Both the position numbers and the translations under genes were made by a program. A stretch of DNA of 34,159 nt from Ectocarpus siliculosus (lineage: Eukaryota > Sar > Phaeophyceae > Ectocarpales > Ectocarpaceae), in NCBI GenBank assembly GCA_000310025.1, contig FN648406.1, positions 1 through 34,159 on the forward strand. Reading direction: 5' to 3'. Shown piece after piece: positions 5,501 through 33,441 of the stretch (the stretch's first letter is position 1; every line of letters starts with the position of its first letter). The notes beneath the pieces were generated by a model that saw only the letters and a program-made list of their open reading frames with translations, ran no database searches and had not been told where the DNA came from.

Positions 5501-7571
5501 CTGTACGAACACACAACAATGAGATGACACCGATAAGAGGCCTCGTGCGCAGACTGACGTTACGTGCGTGTTATTGGCCTACTACAGCTTTTGGGAATCG
5601 AACTGCTTACTTCGAGGGTATCCATGAACCATACATGCGTGTGTATGTTGCAATGCATATATGCATATGTATTCATGCATACATCAAACCAAAAACTCTA
5701 CGAGTGAACAGAGCAAGAATGGCACGGCAAGAGAATTATGTACTAGCTTGTGCTGCCAAAATGCAGACGACCCTGCCGCAGTTTGATCAAAACCTACCGT
5801 TACGTACTACGTACACAATACACGGCACGAGTTGGAGTGATGTGCAGCCCGGCCACCTCACATTGCAACATGAAAAAAATTGCTCACAATGAACGGAAAA
5901 TATGCGGCATCGCCTGCTGGGTATGCAGGACAGCAGGACAGATATTTATATTTCTATATGAGCCTCCTCTGCGTTGTGTGTCTCTTCAAGTCGTGAACTT
6001 CCAAAAAAAAAGGTGAGAAATCACAAGCGGTGGACACCATGAGCGCGTTCAATTTTCCGACGAAATAATGGAGCCGGGCAATGTAACATTAATATTTCAT
6101 CATCCTAATTTCAAAACGTGTATTGAGACTGACTGACCTCCTCCCGCCTCCGCTTCTCCCGCGAGGCTTTCCGCTCCATTCGGTCCGGATTGAGCGGTCT
6201 CTTCCCTCCTCCCGCTCCCGCCCCGACCCCCGCCTTCACTCCGCCCGCGACCGGCCCTCGGCGGCCTTTGCTGCTGGTGCTGCTGCTACCCTTCCCTCCC
6301 GCTGCTGCCATTCCTCCGGCCCGTTCCTGCTTTGCTGCCACGAGCGCGTGCGATGCGGCAGCAGCATCATCGCGGGAGCACGGAGCAGCCGTCGGGGAAG
6401 CGACCACAGAATCGGCCCTAGGTCCTGCTGCTGCTGCTGCTGCTGCTGGGGGGCCCAGGAATTGCGGGCTGCTGCTGACGCTGTTGCTGCTGTTAACGCC
6501 GCCATCCCAGCCGCCTGCGAGCAGGCTGGCGCTGATTTCCGAGAGGGCCTTCGGGCCGAGGTTGTCCCAGCTGCTTGTCTGCGGCAAGCTCCGCTTCCGC
6601 CCGCTTGTTTTTGGGGGGGAGGGCAGCGGCTGCTGCTGCTTGTACTGCTGTTGCGTCTCCGTCCCGTTGCTGCCGCTCAGGTCTGCGCATGAGAAGTCGC
6701 CTCTATGGGGCGACAGAAAGACAGAAACGCGTGCATCCACGTGGTGAGCATAGCAATATGCGCGTTTGTTGAAGTTTTTTTTTTTTGCTGGTTCGGAAAA
6801 GACGCGAAAAAATTGTCAACGATTGCGATCGGGTTGTGGGTACATACACAGGCGAAGAGAGAGAGAGCCAGAGGAGCACGGAATGCCGACTTGCAACGCA
6901 GGAGGGACAAAGGCTCCCATGCGACAGCAGATCCCCCGGCTTGCAAAAGGAGACGTAGGTTGACGTACGGGACACAACAAACCACACCACGTAAACCAAA
7001 AACAAGCATCACCAAAACGGGGCACCTCCGTTCTTGCTTGAGCCAAGACGAGGCAAAAGCGAAGAGGGGGGGGAAGCACGAATTGCGCAGGAGGCTGTAC
7101 GATGAACGGCTCAGAGTGCGGGGAGCACATCACGCGGCTGCACCGCTCTCCTCCCGCATGCCCCATGATCAGAAACTATCTGCCTGTGCTTCGAAGTTTA
7201 ACCAAAAAAGTGGAGAAGAGCCGAGAAAAAATACACCTCTCAGGGAATCGACTGCGTCGAGTGTTGGATCAGTACGGACATAAGAAGGTACTGGGTAGAG
7301 AGAGATTGAACGGTTTTTAACAACAATAACAACACCTCTCAGGTCATCAGTTGCTTCCTCCTCCCTCCCGATACAACTCCGTGCTTCAAAGCATGCAATA
7401 TTGTAGGGGATGCCACAAAACTCACAGGTCAACGAGAGTGTCCCACACGCTCGGCTGAAGCAAGCCGTCGAACTCTTCCGACCCGAGGTCTTCTTGCGGC
7501 ATGCCATTCCCGACTGCCGGCGCAGCAATCGCAACGGTGATGCGAGGGATGCGAGGCGACGACGACGACAT
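2575..7571 (-). CDS. Basic helix-loop-helix (bHLH) transcription factor, four exons
   Basis: Exons are 7571-7426, 6702-6138, 3913-2898 and 2671-2575. All junctions have GT/AG ends and matching phases, giving about 607 aa. The ATG at 7571 is the first after an in-frame stop near 7605. Exon 1 has an acidic segment (EEFDGLLQPSVWDTLVDL, residues 32-49). Exon 2 is Ser/Ala/Gln-rich and ends with the basic region (residues 219-237). Exon 3 opens with helix 1 (VNEKFDQLLQVLEE), a long loop, and helix 2 (RRVEVLSRTIQVVKKLL, about 277-293). The basic region carries K5-E9-R13 in bHLH numbering, the pattern of E-box (CANNTG) binders. This implies a nuclear, dimeric DNA-binding regulator. The rest is Ala/Pro/Met-rich low-complexity sequence with poly-Ala from GCN repeats. 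The C-terminus (SMLEMDLITFLQRSLPKVW) looks folded. Target genes are unknown. Confidence 0.85.
3914..6137 (-). other. Intron 2 of the bHLH gene (2.2 kb)
   Basis: The donor GAG|GTCAGT lies at 6138/6137 and the acceptor CGCAG|GTTAAC at 3914/3913. Open frames inside it on either strand show no family motif. A minus-strand B-box-like GTTCGATTCC near 5590-5602 is the only RNA-polymerase-III-like hint. Confidence 0.75.
7243..7320 (-). repeat. Dispersed repeat, copy 1 (inverted relative to copy 2)
   Basis: The reverse complement of this stretch matches 12388-12464 almost throughout. Shared core segments include AAAAACCGTTC, TCTCTCTACCCAGTACCTTC and TCCGTACTGATCCAACACTC. It lies inside intron 1 of the bHLH gene (7425-6703). 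It is probably a transposon fragment of unidentified family. Confidence 0.8.
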
Positions 7572-12387: not shown

Positions 12388-12464
12388 TAAAAACCGTTCC
12401 GATCTCTCTCTACCCAGTACCTTCGTATGTCCGTACTGATCCAACACTCGACGCGGCCGATTCC
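12388..12464 (+). repeat. Dispersed repeat, copy 2
   Basis: This is the inverted counterpart of 7243-7320, with only a few substitutions over about 77 bp. Similarity fades on both sides: the preceding GTTGTTGTTGT tract is only loosely shared, and the match ends after CGATTCCC. Confidence 0.8.
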
Positions 12465-12889
12465 CGTGGTCACAGGTTAACTTACCCTACAAAGGTACAC
12501 TCAAATAAACTGGCCCCGAGGGGTCCGCAAGTCAATAGAAATCAACGACAGATATTCTGGAATCCTCCACTTCCTCTGCGCGCTATGCGAGGTATCAACT
12601 GAGACTAGGAGTCACTATCTATCATGGGCCTTTGCTAGATTTTGGGATTAGCAACTGACACGAGTTTAATGTGAAGAAAAACAACAAAACAAAACAACAA
12701 CAAAATGGGCCGGAGAGAAAGAGGTACACCCCCTTGGTTCAATCTTGGTACTTCACACGCAAGCAGAGACAAGGCCATCTGGCGCAGAAAACGAGAGAAA
12801 AAAAGAGAAAAAAAAAAAAATGGAAACAATACAAGAAGAAGAGAAAATAAATTTTTGTGTGTGCGTGCGTGTGTGTGTGTATTTATTGT

Positions 12890-19346: not shown

Positions 19347-22300
19347 TCAGCAGGATGCGACAGCCCAAAGGAATAAGAAATCCGTTTTAAGAAATTGACC
19401 GACTTCGGCTGGTCCTTCTGCCCAGAATAAGAAATTGAGGCTCGACCCGATTTTGACGTTTCTTGCCGCCGGGCCTTGTCTGTAGTAACGACCACTCATG
19501 ACGTTCTCGATCCATTCTTGCTTCACCTGCCAAAAAAACGCGTCGACCCCCAGTGTTTACGTCTTGGACGAAAACTCGCACAGTTCTCAACAACGGCAAC
19601 ATAGAGAGGACGTGCGGACGCCGACAAGCAGACAGACATGTGACGCACACACAACGGAAGGCCGTCCCGATTAGCCCACGGTGAAAGAGCCAACATCCCC
19701 ACACCCCAACCATCGCCACCACGAGCTTACCTTCTCAAGGTATTGAGAGAGGGAGAAGAGATACTCATAGTTGGGTCCCGAAGGCCCAACCGCCAAAGCA
19801 ATGGTATCCGCGGCCTCGTCGATGGAGGGCACGTGAAAGTTCGGATTGCTTGTTGTACCCGTGTACAGCAAAGCTGGCGTTGGCACCGCGGTGTCTTCAG
19901 AACTGGTGGTGTCTTCCTTCTGGCCACCCTCGCCTGCCACGTCACATCAAAGACCCAGCAGTACATTCAGTTTCAGACATGCATGCCACATTCATTCGTC
20001 TTCGTATATACCCACCCGTACACATCAAGGAAACATATTGTGCCCCTCACATTGTACCTTCGTACCATTGAGTAGCTCGGACAAAAACATTCATCAAGGA
20101 CTGAGTACAGCTCGCAGTTTGTTGCACACTGCTGGTTGTTTGTGGCCCCTTTGACTTCCCAGAGGGGCTACCGTGCCCGCCCACGGTAATATGGAGTGTG
20201 GGGGGGGATTAAGTTATCCCAGGACCGATGCAGATGACATGAACCTTGATCATCACACACTCGTGCTGCTTCCAGCACAGTCAGGCATAGAGATAGATAT
20301 GATACAGCAGCGAACACATGTGCATGCTCTCTCTAGAGGGGCCCCGCACTTGGACCCCCAACACCATACCCACACACACACACATACTCTGCAGATCGGG
20401 TCTTGCATCCAAGTACCCAAACAGCCCGCTGCTTGATACAACATACGATCTTGATGTCCTTCGCGGACAATCATCCAACCAATTGAAAAACACAAACAAT
20501 CACTTGAGAAACGTCCTCTACCAAAACTGGCTAGGCATTTTAGCACAAAGCATGTCCATCAATTCACCTACGAACCAAATGTATTCGCCCCCTGGATATA
20601 ATCTCAAACCGTCAAGACAAAAGAATCATCCTCAGAAGAGTACCCAACAAGTATCTGCGCTACATCAGAAAAAAAAGCGTCGGAACGGCGACGGACAAAT
20701 CTGAAAAAAACGCTTCAAAAGAGTTGACACAACATCCCCCAACAAAACGAAGTTCCAACTTCTTGACCAATCAAAACGAGCATTCGGAAAGTACGGGGAC
20801 CCCAACCACTACTCGTCAAAAGATGTCAAACCTTTCCTCCAGTATAGTGTCGAAGGACCAGATCCTAAACAGCGCGCACATGAGAGTCGGTGCCGCCGCT
20901 GTTGTCAGAGAAACGACAGAACAAAAAACAGTCATGCGAACAGCCCCCCTGCTGCAACATCCCCCGAAACATACAAATCTTGGCCTCCCTCCTCTCACTA
21001 GTTTTGGCACAAGACAACAATATCAATACAACAGCCCGGGGGGTAGCCCCGGCCTCATCTGAAGCCCTTTCCTTTTCTTGTGGCCAGGGAGGGTATCTAT
21101 ATATATATATGTAGGGGTCGAGGATGATAGTATTGTTGTTCGCGGTGATAATAAGAAGTTGAACGAAGGAAAGAAGCAACACTTTTCCTCGTTCTTGACT
21201 TGGGCGTTGGCATGGGTACCGAGTCGGAAAAACGACAGGTGGTCGCCGGCCGTGACCATGGTCGCCATTGGCGTCAGATGAGGATCGGCAAGGCTACGCT
21301 TTATCGGGTAGACGGGGAAGCGTGAACCACATACTTTTCTCCTGTCGTCAAGTACGGGAGAGAATGACCGAGGGCAGCCCCGATGGGTTATTAGCGCGAA
21401 GATAGATGTGGGGTGGAAATTCTTTGTGATGGTCCAGGCACGCACGTGTTTGTCTGCAGCGCGACGAATACTGCAACCCAACGGCAAACCACAAAAGAAA
21501 CCAGAACCAGGCAAGGCCAGGCGCGAAGATCAGTCATACACGCGCATGGGCAAACAAAGTGGACTAAGGTCCGCCGAGTGAAACACACGCGGGAAAGTGA
21601 AGTCAAAATAAAAGCGGTAATAAAGGCAGTCGACCAGATAAGAAAATGAAACCTCGCGGAGTACAGAGGTACGATACATGTACCAGGTACTAGTGAAGGA
21701 CGACGAGGAGAACGAAGGCGCTAATTTATGCCGAGGTCGGGCGATCACAAAACGCCACTCGATAAAATGCACAAACGCCGCTAAAAACAAGTGCACAAAC
21801 GAAACACCTCCATAACCATAGACACGCAAGGGGAAAGTGGCATATGCAATGCAATCCGACGAGTGAACGGCGCGTTGCAACACTCAGTCGTGGCGGTGGT
21901 GTCTTGCACGACATCGGATCGCCGGCACGGTGGGATTCTTCTTCGTTGGAGTGCTTGGCTCTCGTGTTCGCCCTCTGCTGACTGCTGACGACATAAGTTG
22001 AGGGCGTTGGCGCGCGCGGAGGCGGTTTCGTTCGTACGCATAAGCCGGTCGCCCCGGTGGTCTAGTTGGTAGCCTCGTAACCTTCTAGAAGTCAGGTCAG
22101 GGGTTGGAATCCCGGCGTAGGCGAGCTTTTCTTGCAAAGTGAGTTTTTGTACACACAACAACATCCTCCTGAGGCTACACTTCAGTGCTGGTGAATGTGC
22201 TCTGACTTCGAGCACTGCCTTTTTGCGCAGTGGTGATCGGTGAAAGTTTGAGGCATGTTTCACTCATTGTTAACAGGGCTGTGTCCTAAGTCGTCGACTT

Positions 22301-23802
22301 TCGTGCATGATTCTGTACCAACCATGGACGTGCATCCTTCCCGTCGTGGGTGCGGCTGTACATGCGACCAGTGGGGGTAAAACTGGGCGTAATGATGAGG
22401 TAGGGGTGGTTCGGTTGTTTGCGCACGGGGGAGATGTACGAATGAGACATACAACAACGGACGCGTTCTCACAAGCTGACACAAGCGTTAGCACGAAACT
22501 CGCTGAAGGGGCCGAACGGGCCCGGAGGGACAACTCTTCCAGCCCACACGAAAATCTATCGATGGAAGCTCGAGAAACATCGACCGAAGAAAAACAGCTT
22601 GCTGTTAGAGAAGAGACCGGAGATCGCCTACTCTAAAATCAAGTGAAATGCAGAGAGTGGGGTAAAAAAAGTGGGATCGGAAAAAGTGGGGTCGTTTTCG
22701 AAGATAGGTTCTGAGAATATCGGCGACAGAAACTGAATCCCTATCGGGCTTCAGAACCAATAGCAATACGCAACAGCCCCCCACCTGGAACATTTCCCCG
22801 AAACATACATGTAGATCTGCCTGCGCTTTCTTCCTTTCCTAGTCAGTCAACAGAAGATCTCAAAACATCAAAGTGCACGAAACAGTCCCCCAGCCGAACT
22901 TGCCCTGCATGCATAAAGAAAAATATGTACTACGCATTCGCTGGTGTTGCGTCTGAAACCATGACAACACATTCCCTCCCCCTGATTCTTGGAGGAAAAC
23001 ACAACAAAACGAATAAAAAGAAAACATCATAAAAACAAATCCAACTTGCGAAAGCACTCTGCTCAGCTGGTACTGTGGCTAGAAACATTGTACACAAATC
23101 CCCCCCCCATGGTTCTTGACAGCAATGCAAACAGTAGATTAAGACAGTTATCTTTGAATTCCGCACGTCACTCAAAAATTTGGGTCCAAAATTACATAAG
23201 TCAAAACCCAGAAGAACTACTTGTAAACAACACCAAACACAAACGAGAGTAACGTACAAAACAACGCATTGTCTCTCGCAGGCGATCATGTGGCGCTGTG
23301 GGGGCGCATGGGAGGGGGCGGGGGGCGGGGGGGGAAACAGACAAGGGTAGACACTCCCCCCGCTCGCGGGTCCTCATCCCCGCTCGCGCTGTCGCTCCTG
23401 CCGTTGAGCACGTCGATGCCGGTGGCGCTGCTGCCGCCGATGTCGCTCGGGCCGATGCCGCCGCTCCCGTCGCTGCCGCTCCCATTGGCACCGCTCCCGC
23501 CGTCGCAGCTCTGGCCGAAGCCGCCGCTGCCGTCGCCGCTTTTGCTGCCGCTGCGGCTGCCGACGGGGCTCTGGCCGAAGCAGCCGCTACCGTCGCTGCT
23601 CCTGCTGCCGTCGCTGCCGCTGACGGGGCCGCTCGGTGAATCACCCCCCGGCATGCGCCCATCCAACTCTAACTCGGTCGCACGGGAGGTCCGCTCCCAG
23701 CACGGCCCGCATGGTCGCTCTCCTCCACCGGGACCGCTTCCCTCTGTCAAAGGGATGCGTTGACGCTCCAACCCAGGCCGCGCCGTCTCCGCCGTCGCCG
23801 CT

Positions 23803-23837
<35 letters not shown>

Positions 23838-26800
23838 CACCGCTGCTGCTGCTGTTGCGGCCACCGCTACATACTCGGTCCTCCTTCTCACCACCGTTGT
23901 TGCGGTCTCCCTTCGCACGCACCTTCTGCGTATGTAATCCTCCCGGGTCAAAAGGGTACCACGCGCCCCTCTCGAAACGCAGATGCCGTCGTCTCCGCCG
24001 CTGCTGCAGGTCTGGCCACCGCTGTCGCCACCGCTGCCGGCGCGTGCACCTTGGCTACCCCCCCCAGCATCGGAAGAGGCTCCACCGCTTCACTCCGGTG
24101 CTGACGACTCTCCTGCTGCTTACGACAGGCTCCGCCAGGACCAACACGGCTGCTTTCGATGCTCTTATCGCTTCCTCTGACTGTTCTTCACACACCACCG
24201 TCGCCGCCGGTGCCGGCGCCATTCCACATACCCGAACCGCTGTAGATGGGGCAGCAGGACGGATCTCATCGACGTCGTCTGTTGTGGATGATGGCACCAG
24301 TGACGCCGCTGGCTGGCTGCTGCTGCTGCTGCTGCGACGACTGCTTGGGCTGTTGCGATTCCGCGGACCGCGAAACTACAACGCCGTGATACGATCCGAG
24401 CATGTGTTTCTCCGCTACATGCCGACTGCTTCACCCGGCCTCCATGAGATCCAGCTCATCGCGTTGCCGCGCTACCGCAGGTGCTTCACATGATGTCGCG
24501 GGCCGCTGGGGGGGGCGAGTGGCGGGGTGTGTGTAACATGGAGAGAAGTTACGTTGGCAGGGGCTTTTACCGGCAAATACGCCGCAAACGAACCGGCAGC
24601 AGCCCCCCCCCCCCGCCTCACCAACAAACACTCCACCATTCACCTGCCCACCGGCCGCCGGCAGCTGCTGTTGCCGCGGCTGCTGCTGAAATCCACCATG
24701 GCTGCCATGCACCACGCCTGGCTGCTGCTGACCAAACCCACAAAATTGTGCCAAACCCACCGTGCGCCTGCTGCTGCTGGAACGGCTGCTGCACGGGAAC
24801 ACCTCTATTGAAGAGAAAAACCTCCACAGTCCCGAAAAACCCCACCGCCGAAATGAAGATCATGCTGGTCAGCCGTGGGCATAGAAGACATAGCGTGCTG
24901 CCGTCCTGGGTTGCTGAGTTCACGCTCATTGTGGACGTTGTACACGATGTCTTCCAGCAGCTCGCGAGCCATCCCCGGGTTCATCAGCCTAGACCGTTTC
25001 TCGACGTCGAAATCAGAGGACAAGTTGCGGCGCAACTTCGCGACGAGCTCTCCCTCTGGTATGCACACGTCCACCGCACGACTAGCCAAGATTTCCTCGA
25101 AAGCGACAAAAGTAGTCGAGAGGGTGCTGGCCCACATGCACCTTCAGACTGGAAAGTGACCCCTTGAGCGCCTCCATCCCAGCATCGCTTGTCGGCAAGC
25201 AGCAACGATGTGCCTCACGCTAAGCTCCTTCCACCGACCCAGGCGTCAGAACCTTCGTCTGAAATTTCGCACCTTCCGTTGCCTCCACCAGGTGACCAAG
25301 AGCTCGCTCGTTTTCATCCCAAGCTGTGGCCCGTACCTCTCCTTCAGCACGCTACGAGGAGGGCCATTGATCAGGACCATGGGGTTGCCAGATCTCTGCA
25401 GTGTGTGGGCCAGACCCTCGCTGGCCATGAAAATCTCGAACACCTGGCGGAAGAAGACGAAGTTGCCATCGTAGACCGGCGGCTTTCTCTCCGCTTCCTC
25501 TTGAACATAAATTGTGTGGGCCCTTCCGCCCACGTCTAACTTCCCGGACCTTCCTCTGGTATACACTCCCCCAGCCGCCGACCCGGCTATACTCCCAGCT
25601 GCCTTCCTAGTTTTACACTTCTTCTCCAGCGCCGCGATCCTACCCATCGCTGTGTTCATCTTGTCGCTGAACTCCGTGGCTACTACGGTAGGCACGGGGG
25701 CTACAAACACGATTAATCGTAATGGACGCCTAACCGATGGCGGATGCACAAGATGCCGCGGAGAGGGCGGCAGCAGCGGAAAGGGCTGCGACGGAGTTCG
25801 GAGATAAGATGAACACAGCGATGGGTAGGATCGCGGCGCTGGAGAACAAGTGTAAATTGTGTTTGTGGCCCCCGTGCCTTCCCACGGGGGCTACCGTGCC
25901 CACCCACGGTCGCATGGAGTATGCGGGGACTAAGTTATCCCAGGACCGATGCAGATGACATGAACCTTGATTTTCACACACCCGTGCTCCTTCCAGCACA
26001 GTCAGACATAGAGATATTATATGCATACAGTGAACACATGTCTCTCTAGGGGCCCCGCACTGGGACCCCCGATAGCATATCCCCCCCACACATATACTCT
26101 ACAGATCGGATCTTGTATCCAAGTACCCCAAACACTGCTCTTCACCCAAACAAGAGCGACCACATGAGCGCTTGCCCAACAACCACCTTCAATAAAAAAA
26201 AGCTCGATTCTCACCCCCGGCCGGAAGCACGTCGACCGTCGCTCTCGTGTATCCTCCCTTTTCCCTAAAGTCCAGCCCAGCGAGGACTTCCTCCGCCTTG
26301 TTTTCGGGTATGAGGTACGCGACGCCATGGGTCCTTGACGGGGGGTCACTGGCCGATCGCTGGCCAAGAGCCTATTGCCATGTTGGCAGCGGCGCCCGTG
26401 ATTGCGGCCGTGATCGATCGCACGTGTAAGAAACGATGGGCGTTTTGGTTACTTGGTGGGGGTTTAACGAATGCCGAGCCACCAAAGGGGAGTGGCACCT
26501 GGGGATACTTGCATCACAGAAGGCTCGTGTTTCGAGCGGCGAGGACCACGAATGTCTGTGTGTTCATCCCATCTATTCTGGCGCCACTCTCACTGCTGTG
26601 AATGTTGGTGTTTTAGCCGGGGTCCCACAGGAGGAAGGACGATACAAAGGAGCTATCATGCATTTTTTTCTTTGCCATGATGTCCCGCCCTCCTTGCCGA
26701 ACTTGATTTCATGATATCGCGAGCAGGGTCCAAACATTCCTCCCCCCCCTTGTCGACCGTGAAATCGAAATACATGCGAAATCTATCATTTCCTACGTCA

Positions 26801-27571
26801 ATTGCATGTTCATCACGCCGAACATAGAATCGCACTCCCAACTTGCTGCTAAACAGCAGGTGTACGAGGTTAACCGCTATTGTAGACCATCGGGGGCAAC
26901 CGGCCATAAAATTGATAAACATGAACCCCAGATCCCAATATAAGCTGACAACGTCAGGCAAGCAAGCCACATTGCCCAAAATGCCGAGAAGAACAGCATG
27001 AATCCAGTCCAACTAAAACCACCGCTGTTTCTTGCGGATGGGGCCAATACCAGTAAATTCGTTTGCAGACGTACCACTGCTGCTCCTACCTCGAGGTCAG
27101 CATCTGAAACAAGAGTCGCAACCAAGCCTGGGAACTCCGGGGTCCCTCTGTGATCCATGCTCTGCGGAAGGGGGCCACACCGGACAACAACAAACGAAGC
27201 GTAGCGATTTTGGTTGAAGATAAAGGATCTCGGGTCGCGAACCAATGGCATACATGCGTAGGCAAGAGACCGAGAGAGTGCATGATCTTAGCGGTGTCTC
27301 CAAGGAATGTACGCGATACATCACATCACATCTCAGGCCTCGCTCCCGGACAAAACCTAAGGCATCACCTTCTTCGAAAATAACTGCCTACCTCCTGTGT
27401 GTGTTTGTATGTATCTATGCCAATATTTCTAGAAACATAACATTGGAATACCTTCTGCGCGAAAAGCCTTTTCCACCCCACGACCTCGCCATTGAAGCGC
27501 TCGAAGCCGGCGAAAGACGCCTCCGGTCGCCAGCAAAGACTGCCATAACTGTCAAACGCGGCGGTGTTCAT
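19347..27571 (-). CDS. ChaC-type gamma-glutamylcyclotransferase, at least five exons, intron 3 interrupted by an LTR element
   Basis: Exons read on the minus strand are 27571-27452, 27161-27090, 26333-26215, 19933-19731 and 19526-19347. Exon 1 carries the YGSLCWRPE motif and GWKRLFAQ. Exon 2 carries DHRGTPEFPG...TLV. Exon 3 carries HGVAYLIP and LDFREKGGY, whose Glu (about residue 89) is the family's catalytic acid. Exon 4 carries LLYTGTTSNPNF and the AVGPSGPNYEYLF signature. ChaC enzymes cleave cytosolic glutathione to 5-oxoproline and Cys-Gly. Phases match at exons 1-2, 3-4 and 4-5. At 2-3 they do not: exon 3 needs two leading bases but exon 2 ends in phase 0, so a micro-exon or indel is likely. 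Exon 5 (VKQEWIENVMSGRYY...) is a less certain tail. The usual PGR is PGL here, and the YGSL loop is preceded by DS rather than G. Total is about 230 aa. Intron 3 is 6,281 bp. Confidence 0.8.
20137..20423 (-). repeat. Terminal repeat (LTR-like), left copy
   Basis: It begins TGTTTGTGGCCCC and ends GTACCCAAACA. It aligns with 25860-26134 over its whole length, sharing TTATCCCAGGACCGATGCAG, ATGACATGAACCTTGAT, TTCCAGCACAGTCAG and GGGGCCCCGCAC. Similarity stops at both ends. Its start holds two hairpins: CCCCTTTG/CAGAGGGG with loop ACTTCC, and CCGTG/CACGG. A third, GTGCTG/CAGCAC with loop CTTC, lies near 20263-20278. Confidence 0.8.
20424..22050. other. Internal region of the LTR element, no gene recognised
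   Basis: AC-rich plus-strand frames near 20318-20704 and 20724-21062 lack motifs and look like chance frames. A stretch near 20918-20975 resembles 22729-22806 (shared CAGCCCCC and CCCCGAAACATACA), so an older internal duplication may exist. Confidence 0.5.
22051..22118 (+). other. tRNA-like sequence with pol III promoter boxes (tRNA pseudogene or SINE head)
   Basis: Box A (TGGTCTAGTTGG, from 22058) fits TRGYNNARNNG. Box B (GGTTGGAATCC, near 22102-22112) matches GGTTCRANNCC at all but one position. Spacing is that of a tRNA, and a TTTT terminator follows at about 22116-22120. The acceptor stem pairs poorly (GCCCCGG against CGTAGGC) and the anticodon arm is weak, so a functional tRNA is unlikely. 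Confidence 0.6.
22307..22636 (+). other. Open frame of unknown significance inside the LTR element
   Basis: A 109-codon plus-strand frame has a hydrophilic Glu/Arg/Ser-rich second half (QADTSVSTKLAEGAERARRD). No domain, splice signal or homologous motif is recognised. It runs opposite to the gag remnant. Confidence 0.15.
23286..25749 (-). pseudogene. Gag-like region of the LTR element, frameshifted
   Basis: On the minus strand the GC-rich part of the element reads through several frames. At about 25695-25500 is TEFSDKMNTAMGRIAALEKK, a short coiled-coil-like segment. At about 25480-25260 is a copia-Gag-like start: PPVYDGNFVFFRQVFEIF followed by MASEGLAHTLQ. At about 25110-24920, in another frame, is FEEILASRAVDVCIPEGEL...LRRNLSSDFD, matching the copia Gag (UBN2-like) pattern of a short helix before L-x2-LP-x-(E/D)(Y/F). 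At about 24800-24560 follows a Gln/Gly-rich stretch with a possible degraded CCHC-like Cys cluster. Below 24430 come Ala- and Gly/Ser-rich repeats with no motif. At least two frame changes and stops make it non-functional. Assignment as Gag is by pattern and context. Confidence 0.5.
25625..25856. repeat. Head-to-head inverted duplication of the gag N-terminal segment
   Basis: About 60 bp encoding TEF(S/G)DKMNTAMGRIAALE(K/N)KCK occur on the minus strand at about 25692-25626 and on the plus strand at about 25791-25856, with very few differences. The plus copy is preceded by its own ATG at 25737 (MADAQDAAERAAAAERAA). It runs straight into the right-hand terminal repeat at 25860. Confidence 0.85.
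25860..26134 (-). repeat. Terminal repeat (LTR-like), right copy
   Basis: It begins TGTTTGTGGCCCCC and ends CCCCAAACA. Its first hairpin is CCCCCGTG/CACGGGGG with loop CCTTCC and its second is CCGTG/CACGG with loop CCCACC. The third is GTGCT/AGCAC with loop CCTTCC. The stem bases of hairpin 1 differ from the left copy but still pair. Confidence 0.8.
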
Positions 27572-31116: not shown

Positions 31117-33441
31117 ATGGAGCAAGCTGCCGAGGCTGCCGCGGCGGTAAGATGAGTGTCACATCGTATGGGATTTAATCCCGCCGTAAAGAGCTGCTTG
31201 TTTTGGTACGTGCTCCGCACATGAGTCTATGTAACCCCAAGATCTTGCTCGCTCTTTTGGGGCCAAACCGGCACCATGGATTACGGATGAACCTCTAGAC
31301 CCCACACTTGAGATCAGATCAATGATAATGGAGGAGGGAGGGGAGGGACTCTACGACAATGTTTTGTCGTTCAAGTGTACAGTAGTGCTGTTGATCACCG
31401 CTCCGTGTTCGGGTCTGGTAACTACTGCCATTTCATTGCTGCCGTCCGCAGCTTGAAACCTCACTGCGACGTCGGTGCTGCTGTCTATTGTGTTTTTGGC
31501 TCGTCGTGACTACTGATTTGACATGAGACGTTGCCAACGCAGCTCACGAAACGGCACTCGTTTCATCTCGTCATGTTGGTGCTTGAGCTAAGAGAGGACC
31601 TCGCATGACCCTCAGGTCCAAGTGCGACCGCGAAGATAGAGCAGCAACAACGCGACTGCAGCTGTTTTTGCCGTTCATCCGCCTGTCCAATAGTCGTAGC
31701 CAGAATAGCAACAACACTGGTGCAGCAACAACACTAGCTCTATCTACGAGGTGGGGGTATCCACACCACGCAGTGATAACCTGGGCCTGGCGGGACCCGC
31801 CGTCAGCAACAGCCTCGTTATTTCTCCGCATTCTTTGCTTTCGATTCGCCCGTTGTTGCAGGCGGCGGGAGGCATGTTCTCCGCAGGGGCGCTGTACCCG
31901 TTGGAGGTAATCAAGACCAATCTCCAGGCACACACCAAGCAGAGCACTGGACGACCCTCGCCGTCGCAGACGGAGGAGGCCGAGGAGGACGGGGGCGGGG
32001 ACAGACAAACAACGTCCCCGGGAGGGGAAGGCAGACGGGCGGACGGGGAGGAGGAGGAGGAAGAGGGGTTGTTGTTGACAAGACGAAGCAAGCAAGAGGA
32101 GCGGCAGCTGGACTGCCCTCCGTCCGTCGCTTCCGTGGCGAAAGACATTTACTCTCGGGAGGGCATCGCCGGGCTCTACAGAGGTGTGGGTGTTTTTGTG
32201 TGTTTGAGGACGACATACGGGGGGGGGGGGGGGGGGCTCAGCTCTGCCTGCCTTACAGCCGTTCGAAGCGGGGGGGTCAGCTCTGCTTGCCGTACATCTG
32301 TTCGACAGCAGTTGGACACGCACCCCGTGTTAAATCGGGCAATGATCGTACTTGTACTAGGAACGCCTACATGGTCCGTAGACTCTGCCCCTCGGTTTCA
32401 TCAAAGCCGGGGGAACCTGTACGCGAAGGAAGAATCTTGGTTCCAAGCGCTTGAACACAAAGAAACGCTTTTTCGTTTCATTTTCAAGTCCACGGTAGCA
32501 GCAGCATCCAACAGTTTCGTGCTCGTGACGAATCTAGAATCTTGGTCGGGTACTACCTCACAAGAACAACCTCACGGGGAGCAACACCTCCCTGTCTTCC
32601 CCCCTGCATTCGCTGCACAAGCGACCCGCTAGAGTACCACGATGAACTATACCCGTGTTTTCCGACGACGGCTTCACGCACCCCCATGCCATCTTTTTGG
32701 TTTGTTCGTCTCAGGGGTGTGGTACGCGTCGACGCAGAGCGGGGTGGAAAAAGCGGCGTACTTTTACGGCTACGGCTGGTTGAAGGCGCTGGCGCTGCGG
32801 GGGGGGGGTCGGGGAGAGCTCAGCACGGCAAAAGATCTCGGGTTGGGCTACCTGGCAGAGGCGTTTCACCTTCCTTTTACGATACCTATCGAGGTGATAG
32901 AGCGCGCTCGCGCGCTTGCCCTCGACAATGTTCTTCGGTCAAATTGAGCCTATGTCGCGATGATCGCGGTCCTTGACCTTGTCGTGTACTGTATGTGTGT
33001 GCGTGACGTTGTTTCAGGGATAACCTTAGGGTGTGCGTGTGTGCGTCCCGTTTGCCACACTGTTCACCCCCGTCGCTCGCGTGTATCGTGTAGCACAGGC
33101 TTGTCGCTAGCCGTACGTTGCCGAACGCGCAGCTGTGTTCCCACCCAACGTGCTCGCGTTCCGTTTTGAGTCGTGAGTTTCATCTCCTGTGAACCCTTCC
33201 CGACGGAGATCATGACAGCAATGGTCACCATGGGCAACATCTACAGTTTTGTTTCCCCCCTCAAGGTAGCACTACTGCTGTGCTAACCCTGTGCATCCGA
33301 TGGACTGATAAACTTTCTCCGCAAAATATAAAGGTTGTTCTGACGAAGATTATGACGTCGAAAGAGAAGACAAACGCCTTCGCGGTAATCCAGGGTATCC
33401 TCTCCGAGAGCGGACCGGCAGGATTCTACACAGGGATTCAG
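31117..33441 (+). CDS. Mitochondrial carrier family protein, peroxisomal adenine-nucleotide-carrier-like; 3' end missing
   Basis: Exons are 31117-31146, 31862-32183, 32715-32893 and 33334-33441, with GT/AG ends and matching phases, giving 213 residues so far. The first repeat has the carrier signature YPLEVIK (PLEVIK at residues 23-28). The first helix is AAEAAAAAAGGMFSAGALYP. GIAGLYRG, then AAYFYGYGWLKA (about residues 131-142), resembles the YFY(T/G)Y...LK segment of plant PNC and animal PMP34. The second repeat has IPIEVVLTKIMTS, where the basic residue is shifted as in PNC/PMP34 relatives. GPAGFYTGIQ follows. Such proteins exchange ATP/ADP/AMP or cofactors across the peroxisomal membrane; substrate and location here are inferred. 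A Gly/Glu-rich acidic insert (about residues 35-90, with EEEEEE) interrupts the first matrix loop. The third repeat should follow but is not in the window. Confidence 0.8.
32221..32308 (+). repeat. G-run followed by a tandem duplication in carrier intron 2
   Basis: A run of 16 G residues (32221-32236) is followed by two copies of a ~33-bp unit, (T/C)CAGCTCTGC(C/T)TGCC...GTTCGA, at about 32237-32268 and 32276-32308. Confidence 0.75.

Follow-up and report, generated by a model that had tools for sequence, protein, structure and literature searches.

What fills the 6-kb third intron of a brown-algal ChaC gene, and is the gene around it still whole? The window, by which we mean the entire 34,159-nucleotide stretch of Ectocarpus siliculosus DNA that was analysed (contig FN648406.1), carries on its minus strand, from 27571 to 19347, five exons that splice to a 243-residue ChaC-type gamma-glutamylcyclotransferase, and exons 3 and 4 of this gene are separated by a segment bounded by two long direct repeats. 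The explanation that we find best overall, and quite probable, is that a single LTR-type retroelement left its remnant in the third intron of a gene that looks intact.

The four introns (290, 718, 6281 and 204 bp, in the order of transcription), which are of the spliceosomal type and hence indicate a eukaryote, all begin with GT, end with AG and have consistent phases, and the spliced protein matches the Pfam ChaC family with an E-value of 1.1e-38 over profile positions 6-160 of 176; the same protein found no match in NCBIfam, a prokaryotic library. The coordinates of the exons and of the features discussed below are collected in Table 1. An earlier note on this sequence had described ChaC exons flanking a repeat-bounded segment, and the continuous 243-residue frame, the GT-AG introns and the Pfam match bear that description out. 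Of the two gene ends given in that note, 27571 marks the start codon and 19347 the last base of the stop codon, and the exon 3 donor and exon 4 acceptor do agree in phase, with G + GC making a glycine codon across intron 3. On the ChaC profile, exons 3 and 4 are almost contiguous (the first stops at 96 and the second starts at 99), and therefore no piece of the domain is missing within intron 3. Exon 5, which gave no Pfam match when searched alone, is the least secure of the five exons in the model. A DUF7529 row for exon 3 was weak, falling under the Pfam cut-off, and was rejected. The locus is also a case for annotation: an automatic gene caller could split the ChaC gene at the 6-kb intron.

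Table 1. Features of the ChaC gene and of the insert in its third intron, in the order of transcription of the gene (positions are those of the window)
Feature	Positions	Strand	Details
ChaC exon 1	27452..27571	-	Start codon 27571; YGSL motif; Pfam ChaC 6-34; donor AAG/GTATTC
ChaC exon 2	27090..27161	-	GCAG/AGC ... GAG/GTAGGA; inside the ChaC match of the spliced protein
ChaC exon 3	26215..26371	-	Carries Glu101; alone matches ChaC 57-96, 1.4e-6
ChaC intron 3	19934..26214	-	6,281 bp, GTGAGA...GGCAG; contains the insert
Right terminal repeat	25860..26134	-	275 bp; 5' LTR on a minus-strand reading of the element
Inverted duplication, outer arm	25788..25856	+	Lies 3 nt away from the right repeat
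Inverted duplication, arm in gag-like frame	25612..25680	-	93% complementary to 25788-25856
Gag-like open frame, first piece	25249..25680	-	144 aa; by eye; no Pfam or NCBIfam match
Gag-like open frame, later piece past the break	24808..25143	-	No Pfam or NCBIfam match
tRNA-like stretch	22048..22128	+	A-box-like TGGTCTAGTTGG by eye; B-box-like GGTTGGAATCC at 22102
Left terminal repeat	20137..20423	-	287 bp; 3' LTR on a minus-strand reading of the element
ChaC exon 4	19731..19933	-	Alone matches ChaC 99-156, 1.6e-9
ChaC exon 5	19347..19526	-	C-terminal tail; GCAG acceptor, open frame to TGA stop

The spliced protein also carries two features expected of a ChaC enzyme, the YGS motif and the conserved active-site glutamate. 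It has the YGS motif, as YGSL at residue 9 of 243, and it matches human ChaC2 (PDB 6k95) over residues 8-186 with an E-value of 1.3e-22; in this alignment Glu101 falls on Glu83 of the human enzyme, and the glutamate is thus kept. According to the available text of PMC7022552, the activity of human ChaC2 depends on both Glu74 and Glu83, with E83Q having a smaller effect than E74Q; besides Glu74, Glu83 is proposed there as a residue that could serve in catalysis instead, and Tyr109 and Tyr144 of the active site are described as strictly conserved. When we counted along the alignment, the tyrosines matching these two were found to be encoded by exon 4. With Glu101 contributed by exon 3 and the tyrosines by exon 4, a working ChaC enzyme would require that these two exons be joined. 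The two proteins are not identical in build, however: the one encoded in the window has insertions relative to the human chain, the longest of 13 residues, and it continues for 57 residues beyond the matched part, vs. 28 in ChaC2. Among the literature matches listed there was no paper on a brown-algal ChaC. From the sequence, then, the gene is apparently intact and predicted to encode a glutathione-degrading enzyme.

The need to join exons 3 and 4 brings up the question of whether the insert interferes with expression. If intron 3 were retained, translation would continue for 8 intron-side residues to a stop near 26189, and the resulting protein of 124 residues would lack everything encoded by exon 4. 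One could therefore imagine that ChaC is no longer properly expressed, the insert causing premature ending or intron retention such that the protein is cut after exon 3. We consider this very unlikely, as the frame and the splice sites are intact and the conserved glutamate is still in place even though the repeats have strongly diverged from one another. In addition, the sense strand of intron 3 has no AATAAA or ATTAAA signal, vs. a mean of 1.03 in shuffled sequence (a weak point, given that 33% of 200 shuffles also had none), and the correlation between intronic TE load and expression in Ectocarpus is very weak, as given in the available part of PMC12477816. Both splice sites of intron 3, its phase and the exons on either side are intact, and we infer that the insert is tolerated by being spliced out with the intron, which the spliceosome would remove whole. 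It is extremely doubtful that, after a very long stay in the 6-kb intron, the insert is now used to tune ChaC output by retention or slow splicing.

The identification of the insert begins with its ends. The right and left repeats are direct, and both open with TGTTTG and close with CAAACA. Aligned with one another they score 288 bits (83.4% over 290 columns); when the two halves of intron 3 were compared on one strand after dinucleotide shuffling, the best score in 100 shuffles was 30.1 bits, and the claim of two TG...CA direct repeats made in the earlier note is thus well founded. Subtracting 20137-26134 leaves an intron of 283 bp. This remainder had been said to be in line with the neighboring introns, which is true of introns 1 and 4 (290 and 204 bp) but not of intron 2 (718 bp). 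Just outside the repeats, where an LTR retrotransposon would be expected to leave a target-site duplication of 4-6 bp, we find CTGGT and CTGCT, an imperfect match that is alike at 4 of 5 positions (chance 0.017 at length 5). Comparing flanks of 4, 5, 6, 7 and 8 bases yields 1, 4, 0, 1 and 6 matches, and besides length 5 only length 8 stands out (CTGCTGGT and CTGCTCTT, 6 of 8). If three extra bases (GGT) are allowed before the left repeat, an exact CTGCT flanks both.

The divergence between the repeats is considerable. A MAFFT alignment of the two contains 274 gap-free sites, 40 of which differ (20 transitions and 20 transversions), giving a K2P distance of 0.163. The differences include a pattern at the repeat end, where a 9-bp terminal hairpin has two pairs that are changed on both sides between the LTRs and that nevertheless still pair. 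Four random substitutions in the stem would leave it intact with a probability of 0.007, for a test that was picked after the data had been seen. Such paired changes are not predicted by simple decay from identical LTRs, and the pattern favors one of two origins, a mutation event that changed both partners of a pair or LTRs that were not identical to begin with. On the assumption of identical LTRs at insertion, K = 0.163 would correspond to approximately 2.0e8 generations at the rate available for Ectocarpus (4.07e-10 per site per generation) or 6.7e7 generations at that from a Scytosiphon cross (1.22e-9 per site per generation; both rates as given in the available part of PMC10254074). With the Ectocarpus rate, the range runs from about 0.55 to 2.0 x 10^8 generations (for the upper confidence limit and the point estimate of the rate, respectively). 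These ages are only conditional, because the two LTRs, judging from the paired changes in the hairpin, were perhaps unlike from the start.

Between the repeats, the strand that is sense for ChaC (the minus strand of the window) contains a frame that is open from 25890, within the right repeat, to 25249. The gag-like frame is then broken; it resumes in pieces, in different registers, as far as approximately 24808. By eye, the pieces resemble what we take to be a Copia-type gag: YDGNF...EGL lies near the start, and DYFCRF and VAKLRRNL are found in separate registers. The earlier note placed both the element and its gag remnant in the same orientation as the host gene. A gag-like frame does lie on the ChaC strand, but it is this frame, which has no Pfam match, that assigns the element its strand, and we therefore regard the sense orientation as putative. 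The predicted structure of the gag-like piece was uninformative (mean pLDDT 37). A phmmer search with it returned an antifreeze tandem repeat at 1.1e-7, which we read as a compositional repeat match and rejected, and three weaker rows (0.038 to 1.8).

Our Pfam scan of the insert covered all 31 open reading frames of at least 100 residues that lie wholly inside it, plus one 41-residue piece; two more frames, each running across an end of the insert, fell outside the scan. None of the 31 matched a gag or pol family. Rows for Anillin_N, GCM and zf-C6H2 were weak, under the cut-offs, and were rejected. The absence of pol fits an element that is non-autonomous or has decayed. Inspecting the inner edges of the two repeats by eye, we saw at neither of them a TGG-starting complement to a tRNA that could serve as a primer-binding site (PBS), nor an abutting purine run that could serve as a polypurine tract (PPT). 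The earlier description of the insert as a 6-kb LTR element thus holds for the LTR-like repeat pair in intron 3 but not for PBS, PPT or pol, none of which was seen. These absences, that of a Pfam gag match and the 40 differing sites are among the points against an LTR-retroelement reading.

One reason for the missing edge may lie beside the right repeat. A 69-nt inverted duplication, missed in the earlier note, spans the start of the gag-like frame, and a second inverted match of 28 nt (25687-25714 with 25855-25882, 89%) takes in the first bases of the right repeat. We read the inverted duplication as a local rearrangement by which the internal region would have lost its original edge. The Rfam family mir-8515 was returned over this duplication at 44.7 bits (E 2.9e-6), vs. 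a gathering threshold of 100, and we rejected it as a case of one hairpin fitting the model of another. Farther into the insert, a direct repeat (20917-20975 with 22752-22809, 80% over 60 columns) bounds about 1.8 kb that includes the tRNA-like stretch. This stretch could possibly be the head of a tRNA-derived SINE nested in the insert; neither ARAGORN nor Rfam called a tRNA at 22048-22128, and the fold of the stretch was not better than that of shuffles (z 0.25).

Could the two repeats instead record two separate events of one family, with the 5.4 kb between them being a composite with nested pieces? This scenario, which covers two elements, two solo LTRs or recombination between them, would accommodate the differences at 40 of 274 sites, the clustered paired changes in the terminal hairpin (with the caveat that the 0.007 was calculated for a pattern chosen after seeing the data), the inverted duplication beside one repeat, the internal 60-column direct repeat at 80% and the imperfect outer flanks. 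However, the repeats share their orientation and terminal hexamers, the outer flanks are alike at 4 of 5 positions, and the length of the remaining intron is near that of two of its three neighbors. Weighing these, we consider two events improbable.

We therefore return to a single insertion. The insert resembles what a non-autonomous LTR element leaves behind, although we place it only tentatively in that class and in no named family, and it is probably a decayed, gag-only LTR-type element that is tolerated in ChaC intron 3. In our proposed scheme, a non-autonomous, gag-only, Copia-like element would have entered an intron of approximately 280 bp by copy-and-paste integration. Its coding capacity would then have been lost via point changes, frameshifts and the inverted duplication beside the right repeat.

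Searches for further copies were made in collections of viral, bacterial and archaeal sequence. A 40-mer from the LTR had 0 matches in viral contigs and a 24-mer had 0 in bacterial, archaeal and viral genome contigs, results that say little about a eukaryotic element. Gag-like peptides gave 10 pattern stretches in the viral contigs and 53 in the genome contigs (viruses, bacteria and archaea), none of which was confirmed, and the same was true of the 3 pattern stretches found for ChaC in viral contigs. The segment 25000-26250 had no match among phages. Elsewhere in the window, a 76-nt inverted repeat (7243-7318 and 12390-12465) is 89% complementary, its arms lying 5,071 nt apart; these could possibly be the termini of a further element, or else a short repeat that occurs twice in opposite orientations. 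An open reading frame at 31712-32629 (+) matches the Pfam mitochondrial carrier family at 4.1e-10.

Elements with LTRs and little else are known from other genomes: plant TR-GAG elements have two LTRs enclosing a gag-like region, without pol. In Ectocarpus itself, the gag-only Copia families Copia-N1_Ec32 and Copia-11_Ec32 have been described, TEs make up 20.1% of intronic sequence, and 81% of genes have at least one genic TE insertion (all from the available part of PMC12477816). With gag-only Copia families and introns rich in TEs both on record there, a decayed intronic LTR-type insert such as this one would be ordinary. Compared by description only, the insert is like these families and like TR-GAG elements in having two LTRs that enclose, at best, a gag-like frame and nothing recognized as pol. 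It departs from them in its gag-like frame, which is interrupted and found no Pfam match, in showing neither PBS nor PPT, and in the inverted duplication that adjoins one LTR. As a decayed TE lying within an intron while the gene around it looks intact, it also resembles the intronic insertions reported for Ectocarpus (PMC12477816). Its place in an old enzyme family seems mildly unusual: in the available part of the same source, long LTR elements are over-represented in young genes, whereas the host gene here belongs to a widespread enzyme family, and the ChaC case would thus be one brown-algal counter-example to the tendency of long intronic LTR elements to sit in young genes.
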